NCBI RefSeq assembly: GCF_002723615.1
Contig: NZ_KZ304954.1
Coordinates: 62,001 to 126,000 of the forward strand
Length of the DNA: 64,000 bases
Origin: Limimaricola cinnabarinus
Lineage (GTDB): Bacteria; Pseudomonadota; Alphaproteobacteria; Rhodobacterales; Rhodobacteraceae
Direction of reading: 5' to 3'
This document shows positions 36,732-44,678 of this stretch, in pieces. Positions within the stretch are counted from its first letter, which is position 1. Each line of letters opens with the position of its first letter. The notes beneath the pieces are model-generated. The model ran no database searches. It was not told where the DNA came from and saw nothing but the letters and a program-made list of their open reading frames with translations. The position numbers and the translations under genes were made by a program.

Positions 36732-37568
36732 ATGTCCGGACAGAACGCGCCGATCATCATCAAACGCAAGAAGGTCATCGCCGGGGGCGGGCATCATGGC
36801 GGCGCCTGGAAGGTGGCCTATGCCGATTTCGTCACCGCCATGATGGCCTTCTTCATGCTGATGTGGCTGCTCAACGCCACCACCGAGCAGCAGCGCAAGG
36901 GGCTGGCCGACTACTTCGCGCCGACCATCGCGATCAGCCGCACCTCCGCCGGCGGCGCCGACGTGCTCAACGGCGACACGCTGCACCAGAGCGACGCGCT
37001 GAGCCAGTCGGGCACCGGCTCCAACATGGGGCTGCGCGGGGCCGTGCCGCCCGACCGAAGCCCGCCGCGCCTGCGCCCGGGCGAGGGCGCGGCGGCGGCC
37101 GAGGTGGCGGCGCTGCGCGAGATCGAGGAGATGCTGCTCGGCCGCGGCGGCGAGAGCCTCGTGGCGCGCAAGGCGCTGCGCCACGTGGTGACGAAGCTGA
37201 CCGACGAGGGGCTGGTGATCGAGATCTTCGCCCGGCCCGGCGCGCCGATCTTTCCGCCCGGCGACACCGTGCCATTGCCGGTCACCCGGGCGCTGCTGGG
37301 CCTGGTGGCGCAGACCGCCGCGCTGGTCGACAACCCGGTCGCGGTTTCGGCCCATCTGGCCGCGCGCCCCGTCGTTCTGGCCGACAACCCGGTCTGGCGG
37401 CTTTCCTCTGGCCGGGCCGAGGCGGCGCGCGACGCGCTCGAGGCGGCGGGTCTGGCGCCGTCGCGGATGCGCCGCGTCACCGGCCTCGGCGATCGCAGCC
37501 CCGCCGCCGACGGCCCCGCCGCGCCGCGCAGCGACCGCCTCGAGATCACGCTGCTGCGGCGGCATTAG
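36732..37568 (+). CDS. motB: Flagellar motor stator protein MotB
   Basis: 278 aa. Cytoplasmic N terminus, one membrane helix containing the proton-accepting Asp (YADFVTAMMAFFMLMWLL, Asp at about residue 36), then a periplasmic OmpA/MotB-like domain with NPVWRLSSGRAEAARDALEAAG near residue 220, the peptidoglycan-binding signature. ATG at 36732 follows GAGGGGGAG. motA is not in the window. flgE follows after 70 bases. Confidence 0.92.
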   Translation: MSGQNAPIIIKRKKVIAGGGHHGGAWKVAYADFVTAMMAFFMLMWLLNATTEQQRKGLADYFAPTIAISRTSAGGADVLNGDTLHQSDALSQSGTGSNMGLRGAVPPDRSPPRLRPGEGAAAAEVAALREIEEMLLGRGGESLVARKALRHVVTKLTDEGLVIEIFARPGAPIFPPGDTVPLPVTRALLGLVAQTAALVDNPVAVSAHLAARPVVLADNPVWRLSSGRAEAARDALEAAGLAPSRMRRVTGLGDRSPAADGPAAPRSDRLEITLLRRH

Positions 37569-37638: not shown

Positions 37639-39051
37639 ATGACGATCTCCTCCTCCCTCAGCGCCGGTGTCTCCGGCCTCGCAGCCAATGCCCACCGGCT
37701 GGCCACGATCTCGGACAACATCGCCAATTCCGCCACTTACGGCTATCGCCGCGCGGTCACCGATTTCCATTCGCTGGTGATGGGCAATGATTCGGGGCGC
37801 TACGTGGCCGGCGGCGTCTCGGCCACCTCGCAAAGGCTGATCGACGAGAGCGGCGCGCTCTCCTCGACCACCAACCCGACCGACCTCGCGGTGCGCGGGC
37901 GCGGCTTTCTGCCGGTCAGCTCCTCGGTCATGGCGGGCGAGCGCGGCAGCGAGGATTTCCGCCTGACCACCACCGGCTCGTTCCGCGCCGACGAGGACGG
38001 CTACCTGCGCACCCCCGACGGGCAGACGCTGCTGGGCTGGCCGGCCGAGCTCGACGGTTCGATCGGCACCTATCCGCGCGACACCGCCAGCGGGCTGCAA
38101 CCGGTGCGCGTGCCCGCGGGCGAGCTGTCTGGCATCGCCACCACCGAGGTGACGCTCGCCGTGAACCTGCCCGCAACCGAAACGCAAGAGGAGTCGCTCG
38201 GCCTGCCCGAGGAGCTGACGGTCGAATATTACGACAATCTCGGCACCACCCAGCAGCTCGGCCTGACCTTCACCCCGACCGTTCCGGCCGCCGGCGCGCC
38301 GCCGAGCAACGAATGGACCCTGCAGATCACCGACGGGGCCTCGGCCGACGCGGTGGTGGGCGAATACACGCTGGTCTTCGACGACAGCCGCGGCGCGGGC
38401 GGCAGCCTCGCCACGATGACCGCCATCACCGGCGGCCCCTTCGACCCCGCGACCGGCACGTTCAGCATCGACGTGGCCGGCGGCCCGATCGAGATGGATG
38501 TCGGCCTGCCCGGCGTCTCGGGCGGGCTGTCGCAGCTGGCGGGCGTCTTCGCGCCGCTCTCGGTCGGGCGCGACGGGGCGGCGACCGGCAACCTGACCTC
38601 GGTGGAGGTCGATCCGGGCGGCTTCGTCCATGCCTATTACGACAATGGCGAGAGCCGCCGCATCTACCAGGTGCCGCTCGTCGACGTCGCCAATTCCAAC
38701 GGGCTGGAAACGCATGACGGCCAATCCTACTCGCTGACCCGCGAAAGCGGCGAGATGCTGTTGTGGAACGCGGGCGACGGGCCGACCGGCGACATCGTCG
38801 GCTTCGCGCGCGAGGAATCGACCGTCGACGTCGCCTCCGAGCTGACCCAGCTGATCCAGACGCAGCGCGCCTATTCCTCTAACGCCAAGGTGATCCAGAC
38901 CGTCGAGTTGTCCTTGGCCGAGGAGACCGACTTGCCGGTCGAGATCTCGGTCTGGGTCTTGGAGAGATCGGAGTTGATCCCCTTGAGGGTCTGCAGCGCG
39001 ACCATCGCGCCGTTGTTGGTCAGAATGCTGGACATGTGTGTGTGGTCCTAA
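37639..39051 (+). CDS. flgE: Flagellar hook protein FlgE with aberrant 3' end
   Basis: 470 codons. The first ~422 residues are a normal alphaproteobacterial FlgE: flagellar rod/hook N-terminal motif SLSAGVSGLAANAHRLATISDNIANS, hook body, and the C-terminal helix DVASELTQLIQTQRAYSSNAKVIQTV. There the similarity stops. The family continues with about a dozen more residues (DxMxQ...LKR type), whereas this frame reads 48 residues that are the antisense of a flagellin 5' end. The break is at 38895-38906. The C-terminal helix is needed for hook assembly, so the product is probably defective. Deletion, inversion or misassembly could explain it; see findings. Confidence 0.85.
   Translation: MTISSSLSAGVSGLAANAHRLATISDNIANSATYGYRRAVTDFHSLVMGNDSGRYVAGGVSATSQRLIDESGALSSTTNPTDLAVRGRGFLPVSSSVMAGERGSEDFRLTTTGSFRADEDGYLRTPDGQTLLGWPAELDGSIGTYPRDTASGLQPVRVPAGELSGIATTEVTLAVNLPATETQEESLGLPEELTVEYYDNLGTTQQLGLTFTPTVPAAGAPPSNEWTLQITDGASADAVVGEYTLVFDDSRGAGGSLATMTAITGGPFDPATGTFSIDVAGGPIEMDVGLPGVSGGLSQLAGVFAPLSVGRDGAATGNLTSVEVDPGGFVHAYYDNGESRRIYQVPLVDVANSNGLETHDGQSYSLTRESGEMLLWNAGDGPTGDIVGFAREESTVDVASELTQLIQTQRAYSSNAKVIQTVELSLAEETDLPVEISVWVLERSELIPLRVCSATIAPLLVRMLDMCVWS
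38871..39035 (-). pseudogene. fliC: 5' fragment of flagellin gene fliC
   Basis: Starting at an ATG at 39035 on the minus strand, the frame reads MSSILTNNGAMVALQTLK and then ISTGKSVSSAKDNS, the conserved N-terminal D0 segment of Rhodobacteraceae flagellin. After about 45 residues it runs into antisense flgE sequence and stops at a TAG (38871-38873), giving 54 codons instead of several hundred. TAGGA lies 10 bases before the ATG, with a short CA dinucleotide run between, so the start signals are intact. The rest of the flagellin and flaF/flbT, usually downstream, are absent. Confidence 0.85.
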
Positions 39052-39264: not shown

Positions 39265-39615
39265 TCAGGCCTTGTGCCGCAGCGCGCGGCCCGGCGCGGG
39301 CGCCGCCTCGGCCCGGCCCTCGCGGTCATAGGTGGCAAAGCCGCCGCGCGCGGCGCGCAGCGCCCGCGCCCGGGCCTGCCCCTCGCGCAGCCCCGCGAGC
39401 GCGGCTTCGAGCAGGCGCGCCACATGGGCGAGATCGCGTTCGAGATCGGCGAGGGCGGCGGGCGCGCCGGTCTCGGCCAGCTCCTTCTCCAGCTCTGCCA
39501 TGACGGCGCGCTTGGGCGAGACCAGCGCGCCCAGCTCGGCCATGTCGCCCGCCAGCAGCGCCGCCTTCTCGCGCGCGAGCAGGGCCGCGAGCCGCATCGT
39601 CGCGGGGCCGCTCAT
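39265..39615 (-). CDS. FlgN-like flagellar chaperone
   Basis: 116 aa, mostly helical and Ala/Leu/Glu-rich (MRLAALLAREKAALLAGDMAELGAL), the pattern of FlgN family chaperones for hook-filament junction proteins FlgK and FlgL. The family is poorly conserved, so I rely on size, helical content and location: it overlaps the rod-binding gene by four bases and lies next to fliK. If FlgK and FlgL are truly missing, this chaperone would have no client. Confidence 0.6.
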   Translation of the reverse strand: MSGPATMRLAALLAREKAALLAGDMAELGALVSPKRAVMAELEKELAETGAPAALADLERDLAHVARLLEAALAGLREGQARARALRAARGGFATYDREGRAEAAPAPGRALRHKA

Positions 39616-39923
39616 CGCGCGGCCTTCGACAGGCCGGCATAGAGCCGCTCGGCAAGGCCGATCCCGCCCGCCTCGACCATCCGCTCGGCCTGGGCCTGAA
39701 ACAGGAAGGAGCGGAACTGCTCCTCTCCCGCGCCGCCGCCGAAGCCGGTCTCCGGGGCGCCGGGATCGGACAGGCGCAGAAGCTCGGAGAGAAAGCCGGT
39801 CTCGAGCGCTTTGGCGGCCTGCCACGCCGGATCGTCCGGCGCGGCACCGCCCCTTGGCGCCGCGCCGGCGGGGCCGGGGCGGGGGAGAGGGGCGGCAATC
39901 GGCGAAAGGTCGAAAGGGGTCAT
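39612..39923 (-). CDS. Rod-binding protein (FlgJ N-terminal type)
   Basis: 103 aa. After a short Pro/Gly-rich N terminus, residues about 40-103 contain KALETGFLSELLRL and the EEQFRSFLFQAQAERMVEAGGIGLAERLY pattern of the FlgJ rod-capping domain. It lacks the muramidase domain of enterobacterial FlgJ, as usual in alphaproteobacteria. ATG at 39923. Divergent from fliK across 112 bases. Confidence 0.8.
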   Translation of the reverse strand: MTPFDLSPIAAPLPRPGPAGAAPRGGAAPDDPAWQAAKALETGFLSELLRLSDPGAPETGFGGGAGEEQFRSFLFQAQAERMVEAGGIGLAERLYAGLSKAAR

Positions 39924-40035: not shown

Positions 40036-42474
40036 ATGTTCAACCCGCTTCCTTCGGGGTACCACGCAGCCCCGATGCCGGTCCGGTCCGATGTTGCCGC
40101 CGAATCGGCGCTTCAGACGGATTTCTCGGCCCTGTTCGCAAGGATGCGGGCGGGGGCCGTGCAGGGGCCGGTGCCGGGCGTCGTTCCCCTGACCGACGGC
40201 CCGGCTGCGCGACCGGAGGAGGGACGCGCAGAGCAGGCGCTTTCCGCAGATGACGAAGGCGCATGGCCGGGCGGTGAGATGGCTGATTCGGAAGAGGAGC
40301 CTGGCCCCGTTGCCCTGCGCCCTGTGCCTTTCGGGAAGACAGGCGCGGCGTCCGCTCTCATGCCGTCCGATGCCCCCGGCTTGCCCCGGCCGAGCGCGCG
40401 CGCCCTGCCGGATGCGCTGCCCGGCGACGGGGGCGTTGGCGGGGCGGGCCCTGGCGCGCTCGAATGGCCCATATCCTCTCACCTCCCGGTGGCGCGAGAG
40501 GCTTTGCCTGCAAAGCCAGCCGTTCGGTCAACGGAGCGGGGCGCGCAGGCGCCAATGGAAGGTGACGCGCGGCGTGCTACGCTCGAAAGCGTCGCATCGG
40601 CCCCCTCGCATGGGCCGCCATACGCCCCTTTGCCCGTCCTCGTGCCCCGGGCAATCGCGGCGCCGGTGGCCGAAACGTCGGGCGGCCCGATGACAGGGCA
40701 GGGCGGCGATGAGGCCCGCGTGGTGTCTGCGCCGGTTCCGAAGGTGATGCCCGATCCGGTGGGGATGCCGGGGGGCGAGGTTCGGCCCGATCAAGCAGCG
40801 CGCCGGGAAATCGGTCCGGCTGCGCATGTCGGAGGGGGGCGGGGCGATGATCCCGGTCCCGTGATGAGGCACCACGCGCTGCCTGCTGTGCCGGCGCACC
40901 TTGAAGGAGCGCCGGCGTTGCCCGGGCGGGCCGATGTTCCATTGGGGGTGGCGTCGGTTTCGCCTGTGCCTCGCGGGGCGCAGGCGGAGGGGGGGCTTCC
41001 GCTGCGACCGGCGGCGGCCAACCTGCCGGGTGTCGCGGCACACGCGAAACTGCGCGTCAGCGATGCGCGGCCCATCCGGCAAGAGATGGCGATGGATGCC
41101 GGGGCGCGCGCGGTCCAGCCGGAGCGGGCATTGCCTCACATCGCTTTCGGTTCGCCCCCCGAGGCTGACCGGCAGGCGCCGATTGCGCGCGAGGCGGGGT
41201 CTTTCTCCATGGTTCGGGCGCCGGGGGGCATCGGCCAGCCGGAGGAGGGGGGCGAGCCGGGTTTGCCGGAGCCACGCGCTGCGCGGCTGGTGCCAGCGCC
41301 GGTTTCCTCGGTGGCGTGGCCGATGCGGGATGCCTCCCTTCCTCCGGCTCCAAACGGCGAGAACCCGCGTCCGGCTGCGATATCTTCAAGCACGGAGAAG
41401 ACCATTTCGCGCGATGATGATGCCGCAAGACCCGAGCCGCGCGCCGTGCGATCCCGCGCTGTGGGCGAGGGGCGATCCAGCGCCGTGCCGCCGCGCGCCG
41501 GTTTCGTGACTTCGGAGGTTTCGACCGGGCAGCCGGTCGTGGAAGGGGCACGTTTCGAAGCCTTTTCTGCCATGAGGCAGGGCAAGGGGAGAGAGGCGGT
41601 ACCGCCTGCGGGGGCGGAGGCCAGCGCAAGGAATACATGGCCCGTTTCGCGCATCGAGGGCTCATATGCGGACCGGCCCGCGCCGTGGCGTGAGTTGGAC
41701 TTGCCCGGCGGCGGGCTTGCGCGAATGGCGGCCTTGCCCCCGGAGCGGTCCGATGCCTTGCCCCGGCCAGATCGCGCCGCGGTGGTCGAGCCCACCCAGG
41801 CGCGGGCCCCGGCGCTTGCCGCCACGCCGCCCGGCGATGTCAGGCCATGGCCCGTGAAGCCGGTGCCTGACGTAACGGCGCGGCCCGCCATGCAGGCCGC
41901 TCCGATCATGGCGCCTTCACCCGCGCCTGATCCGCGAGGCGAGCCACCCGCCCCCCAAGCCTCTTTGGGCGAAGCGGGGGGCTTCGAAGCGGCGCTGCCC
42001 GGCCCTTCAGCCACGATGGCGGTCGATCGCGCGCCCGGGGCCGATCCGCGGCCCGGGCCGGGGCCGTCGAGCCCGCCGCCGGTGGCGCAGCAGCTCGCCG
42101 CCGCGATCACCGGCACGGCCGAGGGGCGGATCGAGATCCGGCTCGATCCGGAGGAGCTTGGCCGCGTCGCGCTGCAGCTGCAGACCGATGGCGACAGGAT
42201 CAGCCTCGTCATCACCGCCGAGCGGTCCGAGACCTCGGAGCTGCTGCGCCGCCACCTGCACGAGCTGGCGCAGGACTTCCGGGCGATGGGCTATCGCTCG
42301 GTCGATCTCGGTTTTGGCGGGCAGAATGGCGCGCATGACCGGAGCGGCGGCGCGGAGCGCGCCCGATCCGGCGCCGGGGCTGGGCCGCCATTACAGGACG
42401 CGGAGGACGAGACCCCCGCCGCGCCCATCCCTTCATCCGGCCCCGTCGGCGCCGGTCTCGATCTTCGCATGTAG
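40036..42474 (+). CDS. fliK: Flagellar hook-length control protein FliK
   Basis: 812 aa. Residues 1-660 are low-complexity, rich in Pro, Ala, Gly and Arg, with relaxed codon use, as expected for the secreted molecular-ruler part of FliK, which evolves fast. The C-terminal ~110 residues hold the conserved hook-control domain: GRIEIRLDPEELGRVALQL then SLVITAERSETSELLRRHL. This domain flips export specificity from hook to filament. flgD follows after nine bases. Family assignment rests on the C-terminal domain and context. Confidence 0.88.
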   Translation: MFNPLPSGYHAAPMPVRSDVAAESALQTDFSALFARMRAGAVQGPVPGVVPLTDGPAARPEEGRAEQALSADDEGAWPGGEMADSEEEPGPVALRPVPFGKTGAASALMPSDAPGLPRPSARALPDALPGDGGVGGAGPGALEWPISSHLPVAREALPAKPAVRSTERGAQAPMEGDARRATLESVASAPSHGPPYAPLPVLVPRAIAAPVAETSGGPMTGQGGDEARVVSAPVPKVMPDPVGMPGGEVRPDQAARREIGPAAHVGGGRGDDPGPVMRHHALPAVPAHLEGAPALPGRADVPLGVASVSPVPRGAQAEGGLPLRPAAANLPGVAAHAKLRVSDARPIRQEMAMDAGARAVQPERALPHIAFGSPPEADRQAPIAREAGSFSMVRAPGGIGQPEEGGEPGLPEPRAARLVPAPVSSVAWPMRDASLPPAPNGENPRPAAISSSTEKTISRDDDAARPEPRAVRSRAVGEGRSSAVPPRAGFVTSEVSTGQPVVEGARFEAFSAMRQGKGREAVPPAGAEASARNTWPVSRIEGSYADRPAPWRELDLPGGGLARMAALPPERSDALPRPDRAAVVEPTQARAPALAATPPGDVRPWPVKPVPDVTARPAMQAAPIMAPSPAPDPRGEPPAPQASLGEAGGFEAALPGPSATMAVDRAPGADPRPGPGPSSPPPVAQQLAAAITGTAEGRIEIRLDPEELGRVALQLQTDGDRISLVITAERSETSELLRRHLHELAQDFRAMGYRSVDLGFGGQNGAHDRSGGAERARSGAGAGPPLQDAEDETPAAPIPSSGPVGAGLDLRM

Positions 42475-42483
42475 GAGTTCAGC

Positions 42484-43146
42484 ATGACCCTCATTTCGGA
42501 TGCCGCCACGGCCAACACGATGCCTGCTCCGACGACCGGCGGTGCGGGCACGGACAGCGCCTCGGATTTCGACATGTTCCTGACGATGCTCACCGCGCAG
42601 ATCCGCAACCAGGACCCGCTGGAGCCGATGGATTCGGCCGATTACGCGGTGCAGCTCGCCACCTTCTCGGGCGTTGAGCAGCAGGTGAAGACCAATGACG
42701 CGCTCGCCGCATTGGCGGCGGGGATGAATGCGGGCGGCCTGTCCGACATCGCGGGCTGGGTCGGGCGCGAGGCGCGCGCGCCGATGCCCGCGCTGTTCGA
42801 CGGCGCGCCGATCCCGCTCGAGCTCGAGACGCAGATCGGCGCCGATGCGGGCGAACTGGTGGTGACGGACGCCACGGGGCGCGAAGTTGCCCGGCGGGCC
42901 GTGCCGGCGGGGGCGCAGGGCCTCGATTGGACCGGGGTGGATTCGGATGGCTACACCCTGCCCGACGGCGCCTATGGCTTCGAGCTGGTGAGCCTTGCCG
43001 AGGGCGAGGAGATCGGGCGCGCGGTGGTCGAGACCTATGGGCGGGTGCGCGAGGTGCGGCTTGGCGAGGCGGGGCCGATGCTGGTGATCGAGGGGGGCGG
43101 CGAGGTGGCCTCGGGCGCGGTCACCGCGCTGCGCGAGGCGCTCTAG
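42484..43146 (+). CDS. flgD: Flagellar hook capping protein FlgD
   Basis: 220 aa scaffold that caps the growing hook. N-terminal FDMFLTMLTAQIRNQDPLEPMDSADYAVQLATFSGVEQ is the classic FlgD signature, followed by a Tudor-like/Fn3 region with DWTGVDSDGYTLPDGAYGFEL. ATG at 42484, AGGAG before it. The TAG stop shares a CTAG palindrome with convergent ubiB. Confidence 0.94.
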   Translation: MTLISDAATANTMPAPTTGGAGTDSASDFDMFLTMLTAQIRNQDPLEPMDSADYAVQLATFSGVEQQVKTNDALAALAAGMNAGGLSDIAGWVGREARAPMPALFDGAPIPLELETQIGADAGELVVTDATGREVARRAVPAGAQGLDWTGVDSDGYTLPDGAYGFELVSLAEGEEIGRAVVETYGRVREVRLGEAGPMLVIEGGGEVASGAVTALREAL

Positions 43147-44678
43147 ACCAGCGAGGCAACCCAGCCCGCCGCCGCCGTCAGCGCCGCCCCCACGGCGATC
43201 CAGCCGATCGGCGGCAGATCGCGGCGGCGCGGCTCGGGCTCGGGGTGGGACTGGCGCACCAGCGCCGCCTCGGCCAGGGCGGGCAGGCGCGGGCCGAAGC
43301 GCGAGAGCACCTGCACCGTGCGCCCCAGATCGCGGGCCACGGCCTTGGGGCCGATGCTTTCGCGGATGTAATCCTCGACCACCGGGCGCGAGGCTTCCCA
43401 GATGTTGATATGCGGATCGAGCGTGCGCGCCACGCCCTCGACCACCACCATGGTGCGCTGCAGGAGAATCAGCTCGGTGCGGGTTTCCATACCGAAGCGC
43501 TCGGTCACCTCGAACAGGTAGTTCAAGAGCCGCGCCATGGAGATCCGGCTCGCATCCATGCCGAAGATCGGCTCGCCCACGGCGCGCAGCGCGGAGGCGA
43601 AGGCGTCCACGTCGCGGTCGGCGGGGACGTAGCCCGCTTCGAAATGCACCTCGGCGACGCGGCGGTAATCCTTGCGGATGAAGCCGAAGATGATCTCGGC
43701 ATAGACCCGGCGGGTGTATTCGTCGATCCGCCCCATGATCCCGAAATCGAGCGCGATCAGCGTGCCGTCGGGGCCGACCTTGAGGTTGCCCTGATGCATG
43801 TCGCCGTGAAAGTAGCCGTCGCGCAGCGCATGGGCGAGAAAGAGCTGCAGCACGCGGGCGGCGAGGCGCTTGCGGTCATGGCCCGCGGCGTCGATCTGCG
43901 CCACCTCGGCCGCGCCGATGCCATTGATCCAGCCCATCGTCATGACGCGGCGGCCCGAGAGATGCCAGCGCAGCACCGGCACCTCGAAGCCCTCATCCTT
44001 GGCGGTGTTGGCGGAAAATTCGGCCGCCGAGGCCGCTTCGAGCCGCAGGTCGAGCTCGCCCAGCACCACGCTTTCGAAATGCGCGATGACCTCGACCGGC
44101 CGCAGCCGGCGCGAGGCGGGCGAGAGCCGCTCGATCATCCGCGCGGCGAAATAGAAGGCCTCGATGTCGCGGCGGAAGGCCTTTTCGATGCCCGGGCGCA
44201 GCACCTTGACCGCCACCGTCTCGCCCGTCTCGGCCAGCTTGGCGCGGTGCACCTGCGCGATGGAGGCGGCGGCGACGGGCTCCGAGAACTCGGAAAACAG
44301 CCGGTCCACCGGCTGGCCCAGCTCGATCGCGATCGCGCGCTTGGCCTGCGCGGTGGGAAAGGGCGGCAGGCTGTCTTGCAGCACGCGCAGCTGCACGGCA
44401 AGCTCGTCGCCCACCACGTCCGGTCTGGTCGAGAGGATCTGGCCGAACTTGATATAGGCCGGGCCCAGAGCGGTGATGGCGCGGGTGGCGGGCGGCATGG
44501 CCGGATCGCCCTCGTAGCCGAGCCAGCGGAAGGGCGCGGCGAAGAGCCGGATCGCCACGCGCAGGGGCTTCGGCGCGTCCATCGCGTCGAGCACCACGGC
44601 CATCGCGCCGGTGCGCTCGAAGGTGGCGCCGGTGCGGATCAGCCGGACGAGGTTGTGCGGCCCCCTCAGAGCTTCCAT
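43143..44678 (-). CDS. ubiB: Ubiquinone biosynthesis accessory kinase-like protein UbiB
   Basis: 511 aa ABC1/ADCK family atypical kinase, membrane-anchored and required for ubiquinone synthesis. Hallmark [11 protein letters not shown] (KxGQ motif) is near residue 97-107, [11 protein letters not shown] replaces the P-loop with an Ala-rich nucleotide loop, and catalytic HGDMHQGN and DFGIMGR follow. Two C-terminal hydrophobic segments (residues about 490-511) are the membrane anchor. The start overlaps ubiE by 13 bases. Confidence 0.95.

Follow-up and report, generated by a model that had tools for sequence, protein, structure and literature searches.

The locus lies within a stretch of 64,000 nucleotides (the window), which is part of contig C4 in a genome of 67 contigs. 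An open reading frame at 37639-39051 (+) translates as FlgE up to the residues ...AKVIQTV and then continues as an antisense flagellin. The flgE body (codons 1-422; 37639..38904, +) is open and matches the Pfam domains Flg_bb_rod, FlgE_D2 (slightly below the Pfam cut-off) and Flg_bbr_C. The last of these covers residues 392-422 of the fused ORF and is cut at domain position 36 of 46, and the gene is without the usual final 12 residues DEMLQETTN(I/L)KR, an end that is intact in the relative G007 and in 53 of 80 named loci. Alignment of the window's genome (G000) with G003-G007 places the junction at 38904..38906, where the last base of the flgE Val codon and a common GA are followed by flagellin sequence. 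The out-of-context tail of the fused ORF (38905..39051, +) is the antisense of a flagellin 5' end and its leader. Its length varies among genomes, and stops shorten it in several, which leaves the idea of the tail as a selected product unsupported.

On the opposite strand, a flagellin stub of 54 amino acids (38871..39035, -; Flagellin_N, 1.1e-07) begins with MSSILTNNGAMVALQTLK. It starts at 39035, consists of fliC codons 1-44 (38904-39035) and then runs into antisense flgE; Flagellin_N matches stub residues 4-47, corresponding to domain positions 1-44 of 139. The first-pass annotation had described flgE as switching after AKVIQTV into antisense flagellin, and fliC as starting normally and stopping after 54 codons in antisense flgE; both descriptions are borne out by the reading frames and by the Pfam domain cuts.

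Genes left over from the flagellar cluster fla1 flank the junction on both sides. To the left, motB is complete (36732..37568, +; MotB_plug 3.3e-19, OmpA 2.8e-05), with an identity to the window copy of 80-88 % in G003, G004, G006 and G007 and of 70 % in G005. To the right follow a flgN-like gene (39265..39615, -; FlgN 1.9e-04, under the Pfam cut-off), which likewise stands beside fliC in G007, a flgJ-like gene for a rod-binding protein (39612..39923, -; Rod-binding 4.2e-09), fliK (40036..42474, +; Flg_hook 1.1e-17) and, as the right flank of the remnant, flgD (42484..43146, +; FlgD 9.8e-20). The housekeeping neighbour beyond is ubiB-like and of the ABC1 family (43143..44678, -; ABC1 2.1e-74) and occupies the same position in G003-G007. 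While ubiB was named by Pfam, further reading frames near the remnant resemble what we take to be dnaN, recF and gyrB.

The parental arrangement was found in the genus itself, for which eight genomes (G000-G007) were searched. In Limimaricola sp. G21655-S1 (G007), both halves lie on one strand with 25,401 bp between the two sites. This block holds flgK, flgL, flgI, fliP, fliF, motA, flhA, flgH, flgG, flgF, fliE, flgC, flgB, fliI and others, the names coming partly from sequence matches and otherwise from gene order and our own reading. G003, G004, G005 and G006 carry the same fused locus as the window, with 79-89 % DNA identity over nearly the whole fused ORF and a flagellin stub that is 94-98 % identical in G003-G006. 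For G001 and G002, the sequence search of this set returned at most a weak or partial match to the locus; thus, five of the six Limimaricola genomes retaining the locus are fused. Since the halves are 25.4 kb apart in G007 and joined in G000, G003, G004, G005 and G006, the fused flgE/flagellin junction is confirmed as genuine and lies far beyond chance.

In G007, and also in G018, the two sites are in direct orientation with the block in between, as a direct-repeat deletion requires, and the genes follow the fla1 order motB-flgE-flgK-flgL-flgI-fliP...fliI-fliC-flgN-fliK-flgD, of which the window keeps only both ends. A published fla1 locus order is listed for Phaeobacter inhibens, in a study that describes the cluster as chromosomal and near oriC (PMC12363192, accessible part). 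By gene order and this published description, the deleted block is the core of the fla1-type flagellar cluster of Rhodobacterales. The synteny of the close relatives, with G007 in the intact parent order and G003-G006 fused, therefore upholds the earlier proposal that a deletion took flgK and flgL together with the 3' end of flgE and all that follows as far as the 3' part of fliC. A search of the rest of the window's genome for the missing block found no fla1-type copy of it elsewhere. As a side observation, the flagellin match in four other intact genomes (G012, G022, G031 and also G023) sits on the wrong flank of flgE or on the opposite strand, which means that the same deletion could not arise there.

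Contigs C6 and C23 of the window's genome bear a second flagellar cluster, which is diverged and comprises a separate flagellin, flgL, flgK, flgE, flgI and more; locus L010 (G000 contig C6:1-20000) is a stretch of it. Matches of this second-cluster type occur in all eight Limimaricola genomes, in G007 besides fla1, and FlgI is likewise present in all eight, with two copies in G007. Second clusters of other origin, fla2 and fla3, are known in Rhodobacterales from the accessible part of the same study (PMC12363192). The expectation of the first-pass annotation that the strain would lack hook-filament junction and filament did not hold, as the C6/C23 cluster carries such genes, and with this second cluster in the genome motility need not be lost.

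Using a 141-base junction query, we obtained junction-spanning matches in other genera. A junction-spanning protein query against GTDB contigs returned 80 loci, 27 of them fused, a proportion that is no frequency because the query favours fused loci. The fused loci include those of Limimaricola pyoseonensis, Roseivivax halotolerans, Marivivens donghaensis, Salipiger thiooxidans, Pseudosulfitobacter, Alloyangia, Roseovarius litoreus, Boseongicola aestuarii and several MAGs. They keep motB (apart from one contig-edge locus that does not reach it), flgE and mostly flgJ, fliK, flgD and ubiB, and no flgK, flgL, flgI, fliP, fliF, motA or flhA was seen within their reach. In L090 and L099, close relatives of L097, flgD lies about 3.2 kb from the junction, but in L097 it lies 1.4 kb away, which suggests that the fliK region was lost there after the fusion. 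Altogether, the identical junction occurs in 38 distinct genomes after removal of duplicates, MAGs and single-contig genomes included. The deletion and the parental order are shown, as is the identical junction in these 38 genomes, and the junction is no one-off: it is common to many genera. The 48-residue tail had been expected to speak against a fusion if relatives shared it on an intact flgE; relatives do share the tail, yet those that do are themselves fused.

To place these counts in the family, we used a sample of 394 genomes, nearly all from different genera. The intact flgE end pattern (at most one mismatch) was found in 277 of them and the fused-junction pattern (at most one mismatch) in 31, of which 12 were exact and one more (G420) was confirmed by sequence; the other one-mismatch matches, assessed only from their letters, were excluded, so that at least 13 are fused, and none of these 13 has an intact-end match. 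Neither pattern matched 106 genomes. The 78 of these with at least 90 % completeness and at least 2.5 Mb were searched with the flgE protein, which gave matches in 24, 12 of them fla1-like. Among these 12, ten turned out to end normally, although the pattern had overlooked them, and two are fused (G188, G299). Abnormal 3' ends of a fla1 flgE in the family sample thus carry this very junction in 13 of 13 cases. In the other family genomes searched, the flgE protein search did not find a fla1 flgE, and many of them retain other fla1 remnants; a flgD match of E 3e-31 or better is present in 19 of 54 family genomes without fla1 flgE.

At the diagnostic site, the intact flagellins among the matches listed read GC (Ala) in 99 of 106 cases, GT in 2 and GA in 5. 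The fused junctions read GT, which are the flgE letters, in 38 of 38 genomes, even though the pattern used to locate them left these bases free. All crossovers therefore fall between that base and the letters specific to flagellin, and the switch is confined to the same 2-3 bases in all 38. Flagellins with GT as predisposed parents were considered and set aside, as they make up only the 2 of 106 sites among the matches listed.

The first-pass annotation had considered a deletion between 12-bp direct repeats, on the condition that both parent genes carried the 12-bp string in that orientation. This does not fit the parents: the string is that of flgE, and the nearest intact flagellin reads CCAGACGGCGGA, which in G007 matches the flgE sequence CCAGACCGTCGA in 9 of 12 positions. 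A perfect 12-bp repeat as the cause was therefore rejected, the flagellin side being different in intact genomes, and the imperfect one is unremarkable next to other repeats. Of 13 intact genomes, 10 could be scored, and in these the better-matching pairs of 12-bp windows in the neighbouring genes number between 5 and 31,846; exact repeats of 12-16 bp occur nearby in all nine intact genomes compared. At the two sites, the longest exact run in these nine genomes is 5-8 bases, although in some of them the best run of the scan may not be the site itself. Homology alone, with an imperfect repeat and many better pairs nearby, does not pick the site. Furthermore, the third codon positions of the flgE site vary freely between intact species, so that no conserved DNA motif is seen beyond the coding constraint: the parents have neither the conserved recombination site of a programmed excision nor a perfect repeat.

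Phylogenetic analysis places fused and intact loci next to each other repeatedly. On a quick flgE tree (91 rows, 37 fused, with the duplicate genomes L079/L089), the fused label changes 19 times, 10 of these changes being forced by starred branches. A quick flgD+ubiB tree (with the duplicates L092/L260, L102/L254 and L114/L250) gave 17 changes, 12 of them forced. In a careful flgE+motB tree of 30 rows, hand-picked and mostly fused/intact neighbours, we counted 9 changes, 7 forced, and a single fused clade was rejected (p-AU 3.4e-31). Such counts of label changes do not separate loss from regain.

For five pairs of fused and intact genomes, the flagellin stub was compared with the sister flagellin, located by tblastn. 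In four of them (G006/G007, L088/L137, L085/L144, L095/L127), the stub shares the residues of its own lineage up to the junction; in the fifth (L086/L126), the codon beside the junction differs (A versus S). The sisters G006 (fused) and G007 (intact) are 90-100 % identical per 100 bases in the first 1.1 kb on either side, with no identity drop at the junction, and 88-99 % identical per kb farther out, across the 33 kb compared. Here, flgE of G006 follows that of G007 to within about 14 bases of the junction. The alternation of fused and intact genomes on the trees, stubs that mostly follow their own lineage and the even similarity of G006 and G007 support the idea that the deletion arose repeatedly and in place.

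On balance, we regard repeated in-place deletion at a favoured site as the most likely reading of the locus. A 25.4-kb deletion removed the fla1 core, which begins with the 3' end of flgE and extends into fliC to include its 3' part, and left behind motB, the truncated flgE, the flagellin stub, flgN, flgJ, fliK and flgD. A possible mechanism is a one-way switch of template, in which the 3' end of flgE (KVIQTV|D) is exchanged for a similar stretch of the flagellin antisense (EIAQTA|E). Directed in this way, the switch would account for the retention of the flgE letters up to the switch point in every case, although not for the choice of this site over better repeats. We infer that the breakpoints are set by a site preference, and that losing fla1 is either favoured or tolerated, whether or not a second flagellum is present. 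Against repeated in-place deletion stands that, unless some step is site-directed, it is difficult to imagine separate events ending at the same 2-3 bases, and that a second recurrent scar of the cluster has next to no homology.

In this second scar, motB is cut after ...GGAWKVA and the DNA resumes at the flagellin start codon. We found it in 6 of 17 stretches fetched, some of which run up to a contig end or include the cluster in intact form; the six loci are L280, L281, L282, L285, L287 and L288. Beyond it, flgN, flgJ, fliK and flgD follow in most. The homology at its ends amounts to at most about 1 base, and on the flgD+ubiB tree its label changes 5 times, with 2 changes forced.

The main rival, which we consider possible though unlikely, is a single original scar that spread through homologous recombination. 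With the truncated flgE and the stub next to each other on one short piece of donor DNA, the deletion could be imposed on an intact recipient, and the 25-kb block could not return in the same way; a gene transfer agent, for example, packs about 4 kb. Such transfer would account for the same 2-3 bases and the constant GT throughout, as well as for another scar type that is likewise identical and nearly free of homology. Over the 75 bases that follow the junction on its right, fused Limimaricola genomes are 89-96 % identical to one another and 85-93 % identical to G007, as transfer would have it, but this excess similarity amounts to about 3 bases. Neither this comparison nor that of G006 with G007 revealed a clear donor tract in the genus: G006 tracks G007 until close to the junction, and the stubs of distant genera mostly match the flagellin of their own lineage. 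On the other hand, synonymous sites are saturated in most pairs, so that old tracts would be invisible.

Site-directed excision by a nuclease, a recombinase or a programmed event, with flagellum loss as a built-in and irreversible step, appears rather improbable to us. It would explain why both scar types keep their respective fixed ends across several lineages, why homology fails to predict the site, and why all 13 abnormal fla1 flgE ends in the family genomes searched are this junction. However, with third positions varying freely at the flgE site, no conserved DNA motif is seen beyond coding constraint, neither an enzyme nor a partner element is among the features identified, and a search of the window's genome did not turn up the excised block at another place.

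It is very unlikely that the fused form is old in several lineages and that recombination with close relatives brought the intact cluster back. The fused label is indeed clustered on the flgE tree (19 changes against a mean of 28.8 after shuffling, with 0 of 500 shuffles as low), and fused genomes predominate among the locus-keeping Limimaricola genomes, as such a history would predict. A regain of 25 kb at the same base would, however, have to leave the flanks untouched, the block of G007 shows no foreign tract at either end beside G006, and fla1 is described as vertically inherited in the published census of 306 genomes (PMC12363192, accessible part). An assembly or data artefact, including the chimeric assembly considered in the first-pass annotation, is extremely unlikely, as the junction lies inside long contigs from five species of one genus (four besides that of the window) and in the single-contig genomes G171, G299 and G399, the fused contigs of L089, L092, L094, L097 and L101 match exactly the length in their assembler name, and several assemblers and MAG pipelines are represented.

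The genes left behind remain open and under constraint. No stops were seen in the matched flgE stretches on the flgE tree, nor in flgD in 66 rows of the flgD+ubiB tree, which include the flgD of the window (42484-43146) and L251-L278; flgD is thus open also in genomes from which fla1 flgE is gone. Within the fused loci, the flgE body shows signs of decay in just two cases: it is split by a frameshift in G299 (L202/L217) and appears shifted after codon 289 in L103. For pairs hand-picked from the flgE tree, flgE dN/dS is 0.018-0.28 between fused genomes (8 of 13 pairs with measurable dS) and 0.015-0.078 between intact ones (7 pairs with a value), the latter mostly at larger dS; for the flagellin stub, it is 0.00-0.17 in the pairs with a value. 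Remnants that are open and constrained would be odd for old dead genes, which leaves two options: the scars are mostly young, or the remnants are still of importance.

FlgI is present in 14 and absent in 23 of the 37 fused genomes searched (39 handles with two duplicates), and the deletion thus occurs with and without a second flagellum. FlgI was typed in 10 fused genomes, to which G004, G005 and G006 add further FlgI-bearing fused ones: none of the 10 is fla1-like, five resemble the second cluster of the window's genome and five are of a third type. An excised fla1 block residing elsewhere was therefore rejected for these 10. The FlgI of the third type (L238-L242) shows about 41-45 % identity both to the fla1 form and to that of the second cluster in the window's genome.

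Two known processes resemble the event in part. Deletion between short direct repeats is illegitimate recombination that leaves one copy of the repeat. In common with it, an imperfect 12-bp stretch is shared by both ends here and one copy is left; in contrast to it, better repeats remain unused, the switch is fixed within the repeat, the flgE letters are kept and the ends recur across genera. Programmed excision of chromosomal elements is known from the nifD element of cyanobacteria and skin of Bacillus. These are similar in the precise and recurrent removal of a block between two coding sequences, whereas here no recombinase was identified, there is no conserved site and no gene is reconstituted: both genes stay broken.

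In the literature searched, outside which supplementary tables fall, we found no description of this scar. A census of 306 genomes of Rhodobacterales describes vertical inheritance of fla1 with sporadic independent losses, and concerns the same cluster in the same order (motB/flgE/flgK/flgL to fliC/flgN/fliK/flgD) as here; its accessible part mentions no loss route, remnants or common breakpoint, the latter two being described in this work (PMC12363192). If a large cluster is lost independently, one would expect scars that are ragged and differ from lineage to lineage. In the many losses found here, the scar is the same to 2-3 bases, and a shared scar questions the independence of the "independent losses".

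We tentatively suggest, as a broader idea that may well prove wrong, that flagellum loss in Rhodobacterales could proceed via fixed molecular exits: a base-precise, recurrent excision of the fla1 core, brought about by a site-directed process or by a deletion allele spreading on short fragments, with the leftovers (motB, truncated flgE, flgN, flgJ, fliK, flgD) under purifying selection and perhaps in a flagellum-free role. Conserved leftovers in genomes without FlgI raise the question of their role there. The shared scar makes it possible to test directly by which route this major marine group loses its flagellum, and it provides a molecular marker for that loss.
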